Source of the DNA: Thiothrix sp. UBA5583
GTDB taxonomy: Bacteria; Pseudomonadota; Gammaproteobacteria; Thiotrichales; Thiotrichaceae
Length of the DNA stretch: 64,000 nucleotides
Assembly: GCA_002425225.1 (NCBI GenBank)
Contig: DILV01000030.1
Span: forward strand, 62,001-126,000
Reading direction: 5' to 3'
Made by a program: the position numbers and the translations under genes
Notes under the pieces: generated by a model
Databases searched by the model: none
What the model was told of the DNA's origin: nothing
Seen by the model: only the letters and a program-made list of their open reading frames with translations
Shown here: one piece after another, positions 1,293 through 6,286 of the stretch
Position numbering within the stretch: position 1 is the stretch's first letter
Layout of the letters: each line of letters begins with the position of its first letter

Positions 1293-2045
1293 CTAGCCCC
1301 ATGGTGGGCGATACAGTTGCAGTGCATTTTCATACAGGACTTTGCGGGCATTTTCACTGCCCAGCACCTCCGTCACCAGCTCAAAATCACTGTCCTGATA
1401 AGGTCGTGGCGCACGGGTAGAGGGCAAATCCGTGCCGAACATCAGCGCTGCCGGGTTAGCCGCAAACAGGGTCGGTAAGACCTTGCGCACATCGAAATCC
1501 ACCCGCCCAAAGCCGGTCGCTTTCACCCACACACCCTGTTCCAGCAGTTTCAGCAGGGTCGGCAAACCTGCCTGTGACAGCCCCAAATGGTCGATGCTGA
1601 CCGCAGGCAGTTTGATCAGGGTAGGGTAGAGTTCAGGCAGTTCGCGCGAATCCACATACAGTTCCACGTGCCAGCCTGCCAGTTCATGCACGCGGCAGGC
1701 AAAATCTTGCAGGTGGCGGATGTCTTCCGAACCACCACGCTTGAGGTTGAAACGCACTGCGCGGATACCCGCTGCATCCAGTTTCACCAATTCTGCGTCG
1801 CTGACATTGGCGGGCAACTGGGTTACACCGACAAAGCCTGCACCAAGCTGTTGCAGTGCTGCCAGCAGGTAGCTTTGGTCAAACGCTTGGAAGGAGCCAG
1901 AAACCACCGCACCGCCTGCCAATGTGTAGCCCTGCATCCGCTGCACATAGTCGCTACAGGTAAATTCGGGTGGTAAATAACCGTTATTGGTGGTCAGGGG
2001 AAAGCGAGCGTCGATAATATGAAAGTGGGCGTCAAACAGCTTCAT
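1293..2045 (-). CDS. Amidohydrolase family 2 (TIM-barrel metal-dependent hydrolase)
   Basis: A 250-residue protein starting MKLFDAHFHIID. The HFH at residues 7-9 is the first metal-binding pair of amidohydrolase-2 TIM barrels. A central SIDHLG carries a further His, and FGTDLPSTR near the C-terminus supplies the conserved Asp. This matches the 2-pyrone-4,6-dicarboxylate lactonase-like group, probably cytoplasmic because no signal peptide is visible. The substrate cannot be inferred. The gene is divergent from the acyltransferase gene, with about 66 bp between the starts, so the two probably share a promoter region. Confidence 0.8.
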   Translation of the reverse strand: MKLFDAHFHIIDARFPLTTNNGYLPPEFTCSDYVQRMQGYTLAGGAVVSGSFQAFDQSYLLAALQQLGAGFVGVTQLPANVSDAELVKLDAAGIRAVRFNLKRGGSEDIRHLQDFACRVHELAGWHVELYVDSRELPELYPTLIKLPAVSIDHLGLSQAGLPTLLKLLEQGVWVKATGFGRVDFDVRKVLPTLFAANPAALMFGTDLPSTRAPRPYQDSDFELVTEVLGSENARKVLYENALQLYRPPWG

Positions 2046-2111
2046 GTTTTGTATCCGCAGGTATTTGGGCTAAGATTCAACCTATTTTACACAACAAGCG
2101 GACGGAGTGCC

Positions 2112-3233
2112 GTGATTTACAGAAAGGAAATTGATGGGCTACGCGCCCTTGCTGTATTGCCAGTGATTCTGTTTCATGCCGGGTTTGGCTGGGTTCCGGG
2201 CGGTTTCGTGGGGGTGGATGTCTTTTTTGTCATCAGCGGCTACCTGATCACATCCATTATTCTGGATGAACTGGAAGCGGGGCGTTTCACGCTGGTGGGT
2301 TTCTACGAACGTCGCGCCCGCCGCATCCTGCCCGCGCTGTTTTTCGTGTTGTTGGTGTGCTTGCCGATGGCTTGGTGGTTGCTGTTGCCTGCGGAACTGA
2401 TGGATTTTGGTAAAAGTCTGATAGCCGTGGCAGGTTTTGTTTCCAATATCCTGTTTTGGTTGCAAACCGATTATTTTGCCGCCACTGCCGAACAAATCCC
2501 GTTGCTGCATACCTGGAGTCTGGCGGTCGAAGAACAGTATTACCTGCTGTTTCCGTTGTTGCTGTTGCTGACTTGGGATTTGGGGAAACGCTGGTTGCTG
2601 TGGTTGTTGGTTCTGATTGCCTTGCTCAGTTTTGTCTGGGCGGAATGGCTGTGGCGGCAATCGGTGGAAGCCAATTTCTACCTGTTGCCGAGCCGTGCAT
2701 GGGAATTGATGTTGGGGGCATTGGCGGCATTTTACCTCCAGAAAAATCGGGTGGAGCAGGGAACGCTGGCGCAAATTGCCAGTCTGTTGGGGTTAGGCTT
2801 GCTGTTGGTGGCAATCTTTGGTTTGCATGAGGGTATTCCGTTCCCGAGTCTGTATGCTTTGTTGCCGACCCTAGGGGCTGTGTTGCTGATTATGTTTGCC
2901 ACACCTGCCACCTGGGTGGGGCAGTGGTTGGGTAAACGTGTATTGGTGGGCATTGGCTTGATTTCTTACAGTGCCTATTTATGGCATCAGCCACTGTTCG
3001 TGTTTGCACGGATGCAGGTAACAGAGGAACCTAGCGCGGTTTTCATGGCTGGCTTGATTGTGTTGACGCTGCTATTGGCTTATGCCAGTTGGCGGTGGGT
3101 GGAACAACCCTTCCGTGAACGTAGTCGCTTTACCCGCCAGCAGATTTTTGCGATGGCTGCCTTGGGCAGTGTGTTGTTGGTTGTCACAGGTGTGTGGCTG
3201 GTGGCAGCAGAAGGTTTGCCGGAGCGGTTTTGA
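2112..3233 (+). CDS. Acyltransferase 3 family membrane protein (OafA/YrhL type, membrane half)
   Basis: About 373 residues from a GTG preceded by CGGAG. The frame is open further upstream, but the family N-terminus YRKEIDGLRALAVLPVI begins right after this GTG. The protein contains the family His-Ala (ILFHAG), FFVISGYLIT, YERRARRILPAL and HTWSLAVEEQYYLLFP blocks and ten or eleven hydrophobic segments. It should transfer acyl groups (usually acetyl) to periplasmic or surface glycans in the inner membrane. It ends at GLPERF, just after the last membrane segment, where homologues fused to an SGNH domain continue. The matching SGNH domain is the next gene. Confidence 0.87.
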   Translation: MIYRKEIDGLRALAVLPVILFHAGFGWVPGGFVGVDVFFVISGYLITSIILDELEAGRFTLVGFYERRARRILPALFFVLLVCLPMAWWLLLPAELMDFGKSLIAVAGFVSNILFWLQTDYFAATAEQIPLLHTWSLAVEEQYYLLFPLLLLLTWDLGKRWLLWLLVLIALLSFVWAEWLWRQSVEANFYLLPSRAWELMLGALAAFYLQKNRVEQGTLAQIASLLGLGLLLVAIFGLHEGIPFPSLYALLPTLGAVLLIMFATPATWVGQWLGKRVLVGIGLISYSAYLWHQPLFVFARMQVTEEPSAVFMAGLIVLTLLLAYASWRWVEQPFRERSRFTRQQIFAMAALGSVLLVVTGVWLVAAEGLPERF

Positions 3234-3252
3234 CGAAACAGGAGAATTTTTC

Positions 3253-4062
3253 ATGATAAAAGGGTTTGCAATAGTGCTGGGGGGACTGTGGTTGGCAGGT
3301 GCTGCCTTGACTGTCTCCGCTGACAATGCGCGTGATGCCTTGTTGAAAGCAGCCGATACTGAAGCTAACGGTGCCTACACCCGCCAGCGTTTTGTGGAAG
3401 TGCAGCGCAAGCCGTTTGATACTGCTGATAGTCGCCGCAAGCTGCTGCTGGTCGGGGATAGCCATGCGCAGGATTTTCTCAATAGTGTGGTAGAAAACGG
3501 TTATCTGGCAGGCTACCAAATTCGCACCCGACATATCCCCACCCCTTGCCAGATTGTGCTGCCAGCGCAGGCAGAAACCTTTATCGAGCCGAAAGATGCG
3601 GCGGTGTGTGCAGAAGCGGATAGCCTTGTCCAGGCCAAAGACCAGCTTGCTATCGCTGATGTGGTGATACTGGCAGCACGCTGGAAGGAATGGTCAGCGA
3701 AGTTGTTGCCTGACACTATTAAAGCATTGGAATTGCGCCCGGAGCAGCGTGTGCTGGTGTTGGGGGCAAAGGATTTCGGCAGGCTGTCATTGCGGCATTA
3801 TCTGAAACTGACGGATGAGGCATTACTGGCACTGCGTAACCAGCCGGATGCTGGTGTTACCCAGGTTAACCAGTTATTGCGTGAGCGCTTGGGAGATGCC
3901 GTTTTCATCGACCCGCAGTCATTGTTGTGTGGTACTGAGGGTTGCCGCCTGTTTACCGACGACGTGCAACTCATCACGTATGATGGTGGGCATTTGACAC
4001 CAGCCGGGGCAAAGTATGTCGGGCAGGTGTTGTTTGCCAACAGCATTCTGGGCAAGTTGTAA
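3253..4062 (+). CDS. Secreted SGNH-hydrolase-like domain (detached OafA C-terminal half)
   Basis: A 269-residue protein starting 19 bp after the acyltransferase stop, with AGGAG in front of the ATG. The N-terminus (FAIVLGGLWLAGAALTVSA) looks like a signal peptide or membrane anchor. LLLVGDSHAQDF near residue 75 is SGNH block I with the nucleophilic Ser, and YDGGHLTPAG near the C-terminus carries the catalytic Asp-x-x-His. In most relatives this domain is the C-terminal periplasmic part of a single OafA-type acyltransferase. Here it has its own start in another reading frame. It probably completes acyl transfer together with the upstream protein. Confidence 0.78.
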   Translation: MIKGFAIVLGGLWLAGAALTVSADNARDALLKAADTEANGAYTRQRFVEVQRKPFDTADSRRKLLLVGDSHAQDFLNSVVENGYLAGYQIRTRHIPTPCQIVLPAQAETFIEPKDAAVCAEADSLVQAKDQLAIADVVILAARWKEWSAKLLPDTIKALELRPEQRVLVLGAKDFGRLSLRHYLKLTDEALLALRNQPDAGVTQVNQLLRERLGDAVFIDPQSLLCGTEGCRLFTDDVQLITYDGGHLTPAGAKYVGQVLFANSILGKL

Positions 4063-4175
4063 GAGGCACATACAAAACGTTAGCCAGATAGCGCAAAAGA
4101 GGTATTGCCCTCGTTCCTGCCCACTTGATGGTTTATGCTAACGGCTTCAGAGATTGACAGGAGAGAGGGTGCAGA

Positions 4176-5108
4176 ATGTCGGCAGAACATCCTATTGTGG
4201 CTATCATAGGTGCTTCCGGGGCGGGTTCAAATGCAGCCATCCAGGCACTGGAGCGTATTTTCTACCGTGAACGGATTAAGGCTGCCTATATTGACGGTAG
4301 TGCATTTCATCTTTATGACCGCAAAACCATGCGGGAAAAGGTGCGTCAGGCGCAGGAAAACGGGCGGGTTCTGAGCCATTTCAGCCCGGAAGGCAACTGC
4401 TTGGACAAGCTGGAATCGCTGTTTGCCCATTATGCAGCTACAGGCACGGGTGAGTACCGCCATTACCTGCATACCAGCGAGCAAGCGGAATGTTATCAGC
4501 AGGAACCTGGCACTTTTACTCCGTGGGCGCAGATGGATCCTGATACTGACTTGCTGTTGTACCGGGGCTTGCATGGTGCAGCGGTCATTGATGACATCAA
4601 TATTGCCCAGTATCCCGACCTAAGCATCGGCATGGCTCCCAATGCCAATCTGGAGTGGATGCGCAAAATCCAACGTGATTCCAGTATACGGGGCTATAGC
4701 CGTGAGGAAGTGCGGGAATCCATCCTGGAGCGTTTGCACGATTATGTGCATTACATCACCCCGCAGTTCTCGCGTACCCATATCAACTTCCAGATGATTC
4801 CGGTGGTGGATACTGCTGACCCGTTTGGTGGCGAAGAAGTGCCAACCGTGCAGGAATGTTATCTGGTAATGCGTTTTGCCAAGCAATTCATTCCTGATTT
4901 CAAGCCATTACTGGCTGATATTCCTGGTGCTTTCATGTCGCGCCGCAATACCTTGGTTGCCCCAGGCAGCAAGATGGGGATGGCGATTGAAATGATCCTG
5001 ATGCCGATCATTCATGACCTGATTGCCAACAGTCGTGCAATCCGTGGCATTACCGATGTATCGGCAGACCGGGGTGCTGGCTTGTCAGGGTTGGTAGGGC
5101 AAGACTGA
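4176..5108 (+). CDS. Phosphoribulokinase-like protein (PrkB family) with altered catalytic residues
   Basis: 310 residues, collinear with bacterial phosphoribulokinase over its whole length (for example FYRERI, GTFTPW, ITPQFSRTHINFQ, NTLVAPGSKMGMAIE). Substrate-site residues are kept: His45, Arg49, Lys164, Arg167 and Asp168. Catalytic positions are changed. The P-loop GxxGAGTTT is GASGAGSNA (12-20), the catalytic-base Asp of EGDxFHR is Ser42 (DGSAFHL), and the Glu of FYEGLHG is Arg130 (LYRGLHG). Normal ribulose-5-phosphate phosphorylation is therefore doubtful; a pseudoenzyme, regulator or changed activity is inferred. GGAGAGAGG precedes the ATG. The stop overlaps the next start (TGATG), so the two genes are probably translationally coupled. 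Confidence 0.85.
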   Translation: MSAEHPIVAIIGASGAGSNAAIQALERIFYRERIKAAYIDGSAFHLYDRKTMREKVRQAQENGRVLSHFSPEGNCLDKLESLFAHYAATGTGEYRHYLHTSEQAECYQQEPGTFTPWAQMDPDTDLLLYRGLHGAAVIDDINIAQYPDLSIGMAPNANLEWMRKIQRDSSIRGYSREEVRESILERLHDYVHYITPQFSRTHINFQMIPVVDTADPFGGEEVPTVQECYLVMRFAKQFIPDFKPLLADIPGAFMSRRNTLVAPGSKMGMAIEMILMPIIHDLIANSRAIRGITDVSADRGAGLSGLVGQD

Positions 5109-6286
5109 TGCTGGGCGGGTTCGCCATTGCTCGCCTGCCTCGGATCGAATTCGGCGCAGGCAGTATTCGGCAGTTGCCTGTCATTGCCGCCCGCTATGGC
5201 AAGCGCCTGCTGATTGTGACGGGCGCTGCTTCTTTTACGCAGTCTGACGCTGGAAAAAACCTGTTGCACGCATTACAGGTCGCAGGTTTTCACTGGGAAA
5301 TCCGTCGGGTTACGACAGAGCCTTCCCCGCAATGGGTGGATGCTACTGTGGCAGAGTTGCAGGGCGTTCCGTTTGATCTGGTAATTGGTATTGGCGGCGG
5401 TAGCCCGCTGGATGCTGCCAAGGCTGTTGCCGGTTTGCTCAAACCCGGCAACTCGGTGCTGGATCATCTGGAAAGCGTAGGGCCGGAACTGCCATATCAA
5501 GGGCCAACGACCCCTTTCATTGCCGTGCCGACTACCGCAGGAACCGGCTCGGAAGCCACCAAAAATGCGGTGCTGTCAGTTTCCGGGCAATTCAAAAAAT
5601 CCTTTCGTGATGAACAACTGATGGCGGAATACGCCATCGTTGACCCCGAGTTGCTGTCTACCTGCCCAGCAGCACAGATTGCTGCCAATGGCATGGATAC
5701 TTTCACCCAGTTGATGGAATCTTACGTGTCGACCCGCGCCAATCCGCTGACTGATGCACTGGCCTTGTCAGGGATGGAAGCGGTGCGTGATGGCCTGCTG
5801 GCATTGTATGAAAATCCGCAGGATGCGGCGGCACAAGCACATATGGCATACGCTTCCTTGCTTTCCGGCATGTGTCTGGCGCAAACCGGCTTGGGGTCGG
5901 TGCATGGCATTGTGGCTCCGCTGGGGGCGTTTCACCCGATTGGGCACGGGGTTGGCTGCGGGATGCTGGTTACGGAAGCTACCCGTATGAATATCGACTT
6001 ACTGGAAGCCCAGCAGCCTGATAATCCAGTGCTGGAAAAATACGCCACTATCGGCAAACTGTTCCGGGGGCGCAAGCATGTTGACCCAATAGAAGCACGG
6101 GTATTCGTGGTGTATACCCTGCAAAGCTGGAGCCGCAAGCTCAACTTGCCGCGCTTGCTGGATTTCGGCGTAACCGAGGCGGACATCCCCCGGCTGGTCG
6201 CCCATTCACGGGGTTCCAGCATGAAGACCAATCCGGTGGTGCTGACGGATGAGCAGATAGCCGCAATTATTCGGGCAAGTTTGTAG
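5108..6286 (+). CDS. Iron-containing alcohol dehydrogenase family protein
   Basis: 392 residues with the group III dehydrogenase layout: GIGGGSPLDAAKA (94-106) for NAD(P) and PTTAGTGSEAT (141-151). In the metal site Asp197, His266 and His280 are present. The usual first His ligand is Gln201 (GMDTFTQ), and the AHP histidine is replaced (GIVAP, Ala270). Gln occurs here in some family members, so loss of activity does not follow. The reaction would be NAD(P)-linked oxidation or reduction of an unknown alcohol/aldehyde. It overlaps the phosphoribulokinase-like gene by one base at its start and overlaps the convergent dehydrogenase gene by 20 bp at its 3' end. Confidence 0.85.
   Translation: MLGGFAIARLPRIEFGAGSIRQLPVIAARYGKRLLIVTGAASFTQSDAGKNLLHALQVAGFHWEIRRVTTEPSPQWVDATVAELQGVPFDLVIGIGGGSPLDAAKAVAGLLKPGNSVLDHLESVGPELPYQGPTTPFIAVPTTAGTGSEATKNAVLSVSGQFKKSFRDEQLMAEYAIVDPELLSTCPAAQIAANGMDTFTQLMESYVSTRANPLTDALALSGMEAVRDGLLALYENPQDAAAQAHMAYASLLSGMCLAQTGLGSVHGIVAPLGAFHPIGHGVGCGMLVTEATRMNIDLLEAQQPDNPVLEKYATIGKLFRGRKHVDPIEARVFVVYTLQSWSRKLNLPRLLDFGVTEADIPRLVAHSRGSSMKTNPVVLTDEQIAAIIRASL

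Follow-up and report, generated by a model that had tools for sequence, protein, structure and literature searches.

The window, a 64,000-nucleotide stretch of the 3.55-Mb assembly of Thiothrix sp. UBA5583, contains a gene for a 310-residue member of the phosphoribulokinase (PRK) family, in an open reading frame with zero internal stops (Table 1). Homology of this protein, hereafter the variant, to the proteobacterial-type enzyme extends over the whole domain. It is collinear with residues 1-287 of the R. sphaeroides PRK (1A7J; phmmer E 3.1e-78), bearing out an initial annotation that had likened it to PrkB-type PRKs, and it scores 167.5 bits against the Pfam PRK model and 388.1 bits against NCBIfam NF011997 (phosphoribulokinase). 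Since the latter score passes the model's cut-off of 362, automatic annotation would designate the product an active phosphoribulokinase. The same alignment confirmed the P-loop GASGAGSNA, Ser42 and Arg130, all of which had been read from the window protein beforehand. In what follows, Arg130, Tyr97, His99, Lys164 and Arg167 of the window protein correspond to Rhodobacter positions 131, 98, 100, 165 and 168, respectively. An AlphaFold model of the variant, built from 7 sequences, had a mean pLDDT of only 41.7 and was discarded.

The variant is followed by a gene for a protein of the iron-type alcohol dehydrogenase (Fe-ADH) family at 5108-6286 (+), and the stop codon of the former (5106-5108) overlaps the start of the latter (5108) by one base (TGATG). 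Upstream lie acyltransferase-3 and SGNH-domain genes at 2019-4062 (+).

Table 1. Positions of the variant gene, its diagnostic codons and its candidate promoter element in the window
Feature	Position	Strand	Evidence
PRK-like gene, putative pseudoenzyme (310 aa)	4176..5108	+	ORF/translation, Pfam PRK, NCBIfam NF011997
Candidate -10 element, TATGCT	4134..4139	+	Recurrent TATG[CT]T box
P-loop region, residues 12-20, GASGAGSNA	4209..4235	+	Eroded in most orthologues; Gly15 in 8/24
Codon 42, Ser replacing catalytic-base Asp	4299..4301	+	Asp absent in 24/24 orthologues
Codon 49, Arg of sugar-phosphate cradle	4320..4322	+	24/24 orthologues
Codons 97-99, Tyr97 and His99 (Rhodobacter Tyr98, His100)	4464..4472	+	Each 24/24
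Codon 130, Arg replacing Glu131 of FYEGLHG	4563..4565	+	Arg 24/24; Glu in 48/48 canonical rows
C-terminal tail, residues 286-310, typically SR..RGIT....DRGAG..G	5031..5105	+	Conserved in clade

Distribution, selection and genomic setting

Orthologues of the variant were sought in 16 genomes of the genus, 63 of the family and 369 of the class, and a 19-row profile was run on 398 genomes of the phylum. All 16 genus genomes and eight others of the family carry one, giving 24 once rows L036-L041, which are protein-identical to other rows, were removed from the counts. Named carriers include Thiothrix caldifontis, T. fructosivorans, T. lacustris and Thiolinea disciformis, and the named relatives by variant protein are Thiothrix species, a marine gammaproteobacterial MAG and Thiolinea. 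The variants are monophyletic in maximum-likelihood trees (support 100/100) and score 523-588 bits against the profile, with sequences elsewhere reaching at most 396. Across the 398 phylum genomes, the sole match above 400 bits was the window's own; the runner-up, L008 at 395.7 bits, is canonical, and the four newly retrieved top phylum hits (L108-L111) carry FYEGLHG or LYEGLHG. A DNA pattern of a hydrophobic stretch followed by YRGLHG, which is blind to the YRGHHG and YRGLNG forms of family members L071, L072 and L075, matched two of the 369 class genomes, each of them a member of this family, and its reversed control matched none. A scan of viral contigs for more PRK sequences found none. 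The clade of homologues sharing Ser42 and Arg130 that the initial annotation had proposed to look for is recovered, albeit with loss of Asp42 as its general feature; the opposite outcome, a variant confined to one strain and accompanied by signs of decay, is contradicted by the 24 genomes and their intact frames.

Each of the 24 genomes also encodes a second prk, and in every case this canonical copy has an intact GSSGAGT P-loop, Asp42 and Glu131. The canonical copies of G372, G377 and the eight family genomes are among the 24 read; in three of these ten later-read copies the residue next to the motif is Leu or Tyr, and Asp42 was established by direct reading. The canonical gene in the window's genome, whose existence had been proposed as a point to check, lies on a different contig (L001:1483-2400) and has both the EGDSFH and the FYEGLHG motif. 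The same genome has three matches to the RuBisCO large subunit, and RuBisCO is present in 22 of the 24 genomes with the variant. No large-subunit match was found in G427 (96% complete) or G428 (81%), which nonetheless possess both the variant and the canonical prk, and a purely Calvin-cycle role for the variant is thus not certain. It is conceivable that PRK and its dead paralogue serve a non-Calvin function in these two organisms, unless their assemblies are incomplete. Within the family, RuBisCO occurs in 22/24 genomes with the variant versus 24/39 without it, one of them below the family cut-off (Fisher p 0.0096), and among the 46 better genomes in 22/23 versus 16/23 (p 0.047); the association is confounded by relatedness and is not taken as proof.

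The variant has been maintained under selection. Its frame is open and full-length, at 305-313 aa, in 24/24 genomes, and pairwise omega has a median of 0.088 and a maximum of 0.226 (25 of 276 pairs usable, at 0.05<dS<1.5), compared with a median of 0.049 for canonical prk (61 of 91 pairs). With duplicate rows included, the medians are 0.085 (40/429 pairs) and 0.054 (71/104), respectively. Mean p-distance is 0.245 for the variant versus 0.100 for canonical PRK across 91 pairs from 14 of the 16 genus genomes (G372 and G377 left out), and the variant distance is the greater in 89 of these pairs. Together, the omega values and p-distances indicate that the variant is constrained, though less so than the canonical enzyme, and such purifying selection excludes decay, which the initial annotation had judged unlikely.

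Gene order is far less constant. Fe-ADH adjoins the variant in only two of the 16 genus genomes, the window's included; orthologues of 75-83% are encoded elsewhere in 11, and three have the variant but no orthologue of at least 75% (two with no match, one at 34%). At eight other family loci, no Fe-ADH was found within 1.5 kb of the variant. The adjacency expected of a conserved operon with an iron-type alcohol dehydrogenase is therefore lacking, and the initial annotation's proposal that the variant works with the coupled dehydrogenase was rejected on these counts. Gene neighbourhood in general was set aside as a clue to function because the neighbours of the variant differ between genomes, and no conserved neighbour links the variant to cbb genes in the loci compared.

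Several other observations on the flanking genes may be recorded here. In three named Thiothrix genomes with long flanks (L038-L040), the acyltransferase/SGNH pair lies downstream of the variant, and such sequences occur within 1.5 kb of it in 9 of the 16 genus loci; a metH-like gene lies upstream in four genus loci. Both were judged uninformative. In G370 and G376, the Fe-ADH orthologue is located about 10-11 kb from a RuBisCO large-subunit gene. The Fe-ADH-family protein of the window has DTFTQ in place of DALTH and VAPLG in place of AHPLG, and both changes are found in 13/13 genus sequences of at least 75%, window included. By analogy with FucO, we take the His of each of the original motifs, replaced here by Gln and Ala, respectively, to be a metal ligand, and the protein, judged by these motifs, may either work without a metal or be a pseudoenzyme in its own right.

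The variant could have a promoter of its own. A TATG[CT]T box begins 37-45 bases 5' of the ATG in 14 of the 16 genus genomes, the other two having it only at greater distances upstream, and this recurrence weakly suggests a promoter, although a sigma-70 consensus scan did not report the TATGCT in the window. A search for RNA structure in the leader found nothing (z 0.30).

Active-site residues, sugar-phosphate cradle and C-terminal tail

We take Asp42, Glu131 and Arg186 to have active-site roles in Rhodobacter PRK. Neither of the first two, by which membership in the PRK family would ordinarily be judged, is present in the variant: position 42 holds Ser in 21 orthologues, Asn in two and Gly in one, Glu131 has given way to Arg throughout, and Arg186 is likewise absent from 24/24. 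By comparison, Asp42 and Glu131 are retained in 20/20 canonical family rows (14 from genus genomes and six from family genomes without the variant) and in 28/28 other gammaproteobacterial PRK rows, these being the best-scoring of a larger number of class hits. The plant Asp equivalent to Asp42 is described as the base in PMC9978339.

Erosion extends to the nucleotide side. The canonical P-loop, GSSGAGT, is not preserved across the variant clade, in which the window copy (GASGAGS) is a milder form. The Gly15 column contains Glu in 11 variants, Gly in eight and Asp in five; Thr18 is Ser in 20 of the 24; and only one of seven near-invariant columns between positions 12 and 22 is retained in 90% or more of the clade. 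Over 12 near-invariant ATP and catalytic columns, a selection of positions made by us, one is retained at that level, as against 34/50 of the other near-invariant N-domain columns and 19/32 in the C-domain. Glu15 is accompanied by Arg45 and His167 in each of its 11 genomes; erosion on the ATP side thus went further in one sub-lineage, later than the losses common to the clade. The loss of catalytic residues is thus fixed clade-wide, and with the base, the active-site acid and mostly the ATP loop gone, phosphorylation by the variant is not expected; on the strength of these residues, the clade is very probably devoid of kinase activity.

The part of the active site that remains is a phosphate cradle. 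Excerpts of work on archaeal PRK describe the counterparts of Arg49, Tyr98 and His100 as phosphate binders (Ru5P or ATP) conserved in PRKs, those of His45 and Lys165 as Ru5P residues, and that of Arg168 as ATP-binding (PMC5241800); the residue numbers were matched between enzymes by us. Arg49, Tyr98 and His100 are each invariant in the 24 orthologues. Other residues are less constant: His45 is retained in 12 variants, the Lys164 column holds Lys in 18 and Arg in six, the Arg167 column Arg in 13 and His in 11, and the Asp168 column Asp in 14 and Glu in 10. The initial annotation had listed His45, Arg49, Lys164, Arg167 and Asp168 as retained, and all are indeed found in the window protein, but among the 24 orthologues only Arg49 is constant. 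To regard Lys164, Arg167 and Asp168 as the mark of a retained sugar site was too strong, given that Arg168 is ATP-binding and 11 of the 24 lack its counterpart. The invariance of Arg49, Tyr97 and His99 still suits the broader notion of a sugar-phosphate-binding pseudokinase; its coupling to the dehydrogenase falls away. Residues Arg31, Arg234 and Arg257, which presumably belong to the NADH/AMP site of bacterial PRK, are partly retained, in 23, 8 and 22 variants, respectively.

A further trait of the variant clade is a C-terminal tail some 20 residues long. Ser286 and Gly302 are present in 24/24 variants and RGAG in 21, with L056, L071 and L072 deviating; in L051 the tail ends early. No RGAG occurs within the last 40 residues of any of the 48 canonical rows (the 20 family and 28 class rows above). 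A search of the genome for a second match to the tail, at E up to 10, returned the variant gene alone. We interpret the tail as a putative docking peptide.

Possible roles of the variant

The reading that we favor, at a probability of roughly 0.6, is that the gene encodes a conserved PRK pseudoenzyme with a binding or regulatory role in Thiothrix and its relatives. An ancient copy of proteobacterial PRK would have been present in the ancestor of these bacteria and would have lost Asp42 and Arg186, exchanged Glu131 for Arg and, in most lineages, lost its P-loop, while the PRK framework and the cradle for the 5-phosphate of ribulose 5-phosphate were retained and the C-terminal tail was gained. 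Maintained by purifying selection alongside the intact enzyme, the product would sense pentose phosphate or bisphosphate by binding and, directly or via its tail, tune canonical PRK (e.g., as a non-catalytic subunit in a mixed oligomer) or another protein of carbon fixation. A constant cradle and framework, a new Arg and a near-constant tail amount to the anatomy of a binding protein, and there are reasons to look to PRK for a target. In the excerpts available, bacterial PRK is an octamer (PMC9978339) for which NADH is an activator and AMP an inhibitor, and RuBP, the product of the reaction, activates the regulator CbbR (PMC4806589). Moreover, dead paralogues are described as regulators in excerpts on the trypanosome AdoMetDC prozyme (PMC5201418) and on PRPS pseudoenzymes (PMC13252144); like them, the variant is a paralogue of an oligomeric metabolic enzyme that has lost catalytic residues, although the families are unrelated. 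By analogy, an octameric, NADH- and AMP-controlled PRK together with these precedents would make a regulatory role around canonical PRK or RuBP the best explanation. We consider such a regulatory binding role about an even bet, and a mixed oligomer with canonical PRK, as its particular form, rather unlikely. Points that weigh against the favored reading are the two genomes with no RuBisCO match, the lack of a conserved neighbour linking the variant to cbb genes, the variation at His45 and Lys164, the faster divergence of the variant relative to canonical PRK and the incomplete retention of the presumed NADH/AMP site. A bolder version, and a distinctly improbable one, is that the variant serves as receptor for a sugar bisphosphate, be it RuBP or another, reading its paralogue's product and setting the flux of carbon fixation. 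In such a receptor, with ATP and metal gone, the first phosphate would be held by Arg49, Tyr97 and His99, and Arg130, taking the place of the Glu-metal site, would hold the second together with Lys/Arg164.

Other explanations account for part of the same evidence. The variant could be a free-standing, sugar-phosphate-binding sensor or adaptor whose tail exerts the effect on a target different from PRK. This target might be RuBisCO, a transcription regulator or a protein unrelated to the Calvin cycle. The conservation of the tail in the clade, and not in canonical rows, would suit such an arrangement, as would the two genomes that keep the variant without a RuBisCO match; in addition, the conserved canonical PRK (0.100) beside a divergent variant (0.245) does not suggest tight co-evolution, which again favors a sensor of this kind. 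The search for a partner was empty, however, with neither a second tail match in the genome nor a conserved neighbour, and we regard the idea as rather doubtful. Less plausible still is that the variant remains an enzyme, be it a slow kinase with relocated residues or a catalyst of some other sugar-phosphate reaction using Ser42 and Arg130. A residue that is new to an active site yet invariant, as Arg130 is, can be catalytic; Ser42 is kept in most orthologues, and the window's P-loop is among the milder forms. Conserved chemistry should nonetheless hold its key positions, and the variability at 42, at 15 (where 16 of the 24 have Glu or Asp) and at 168 argues against it.

The remaining two alternatives carry very little weight. 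A two-gene operon with the downstream Fe-ADH is suggested by the one-base overlap in the window and by adjacency in one more genome, but the neighbourhood counts given above largely refute it, and it must be considered highly improbable. A decaying pseudogene or a sequencing error could explain lost catalytic residues, but full-length frames in every genome, uniformly low omega and identical substitutions in independent assemblies all speak against it; its probability is close to nil.

Relation to known systems

Compared with proteobacterial PRK (PrkB/CbbP), the octameric, NADH-responsive enzyme represented by 1A7J, the variant is collinear over 287 residues and keeps the cradle; it differs in lacking Asp42, Glu131 and Arg186, in its mostly eroded P-loop and in its extra tail. 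Its existence has not escaped notice. Excerpts of three Thiothrix genome reports describe the genus as typically having two prk copies that are phylogenetically distant from each other, tabulate prk1 and prk2 in one of the three, and treat prk2 as a Calvin-cycle phosphoribulokinase, with catalytic residues unmentioned in those excerpts (PMC7767063, PMC9455678, PMC10532065). The variant gene is almost certainly this published "prk2", a match drawn from descriptions that give no sequence. Among the best matches in the open-licence literature, no description of a PRK pseudoenzyme was found. What appears to be new, therefore, is not the second prk of Thiothrix but the recognition of a conserved, catalytically stripped clade with a tail of its own.

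Another non-canonical PRK came to light when 17 other multi-copy genomes, 15 of them class genomes outside the family, were re-examined. Loci from 10 of these 15 (L132-L141) hold a second PRK whose EGLHGG is followed by an insert some 25 residues long (e.g., TWTRRxMSPSHNP); L139 was counted by sequence, as the motif pattern misses its motif, and the truncated L130 was excluded from the residue comparison. Like the Thiothrix variant, this paralogue is an extra PRK beside a canonical copy, but it forms a separate clade (support 100/99), lacks the tail and has the reverse pattern of residue loss: the P-loop glycines and Glu131 are kept in 10/10 and Asp42 in 5/10, whereas His45 is lost in 10/10 and His100 in 9/10. 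No shared neighbour was found in the 10 regions with crude ORF calling, which missed PRK itself in 2/10. The two clades indicate that PRK duplicates have undergone remodelling on at least two occasions, with the changes falling in opposite active-site halves.

As genome papers count the variant as a second prk, the number of working PRKs in Thiothrix is probably overstated. If the variant regulates PRK or senses pentose phosphate, it would constitute an added control point for CO2 fixation in filamentous sulfur bacteria, and if it were truly a receptor for a sugar bisphosphate, this would amount to pseudokinase control in bacteria with up to three RuBisCOs.
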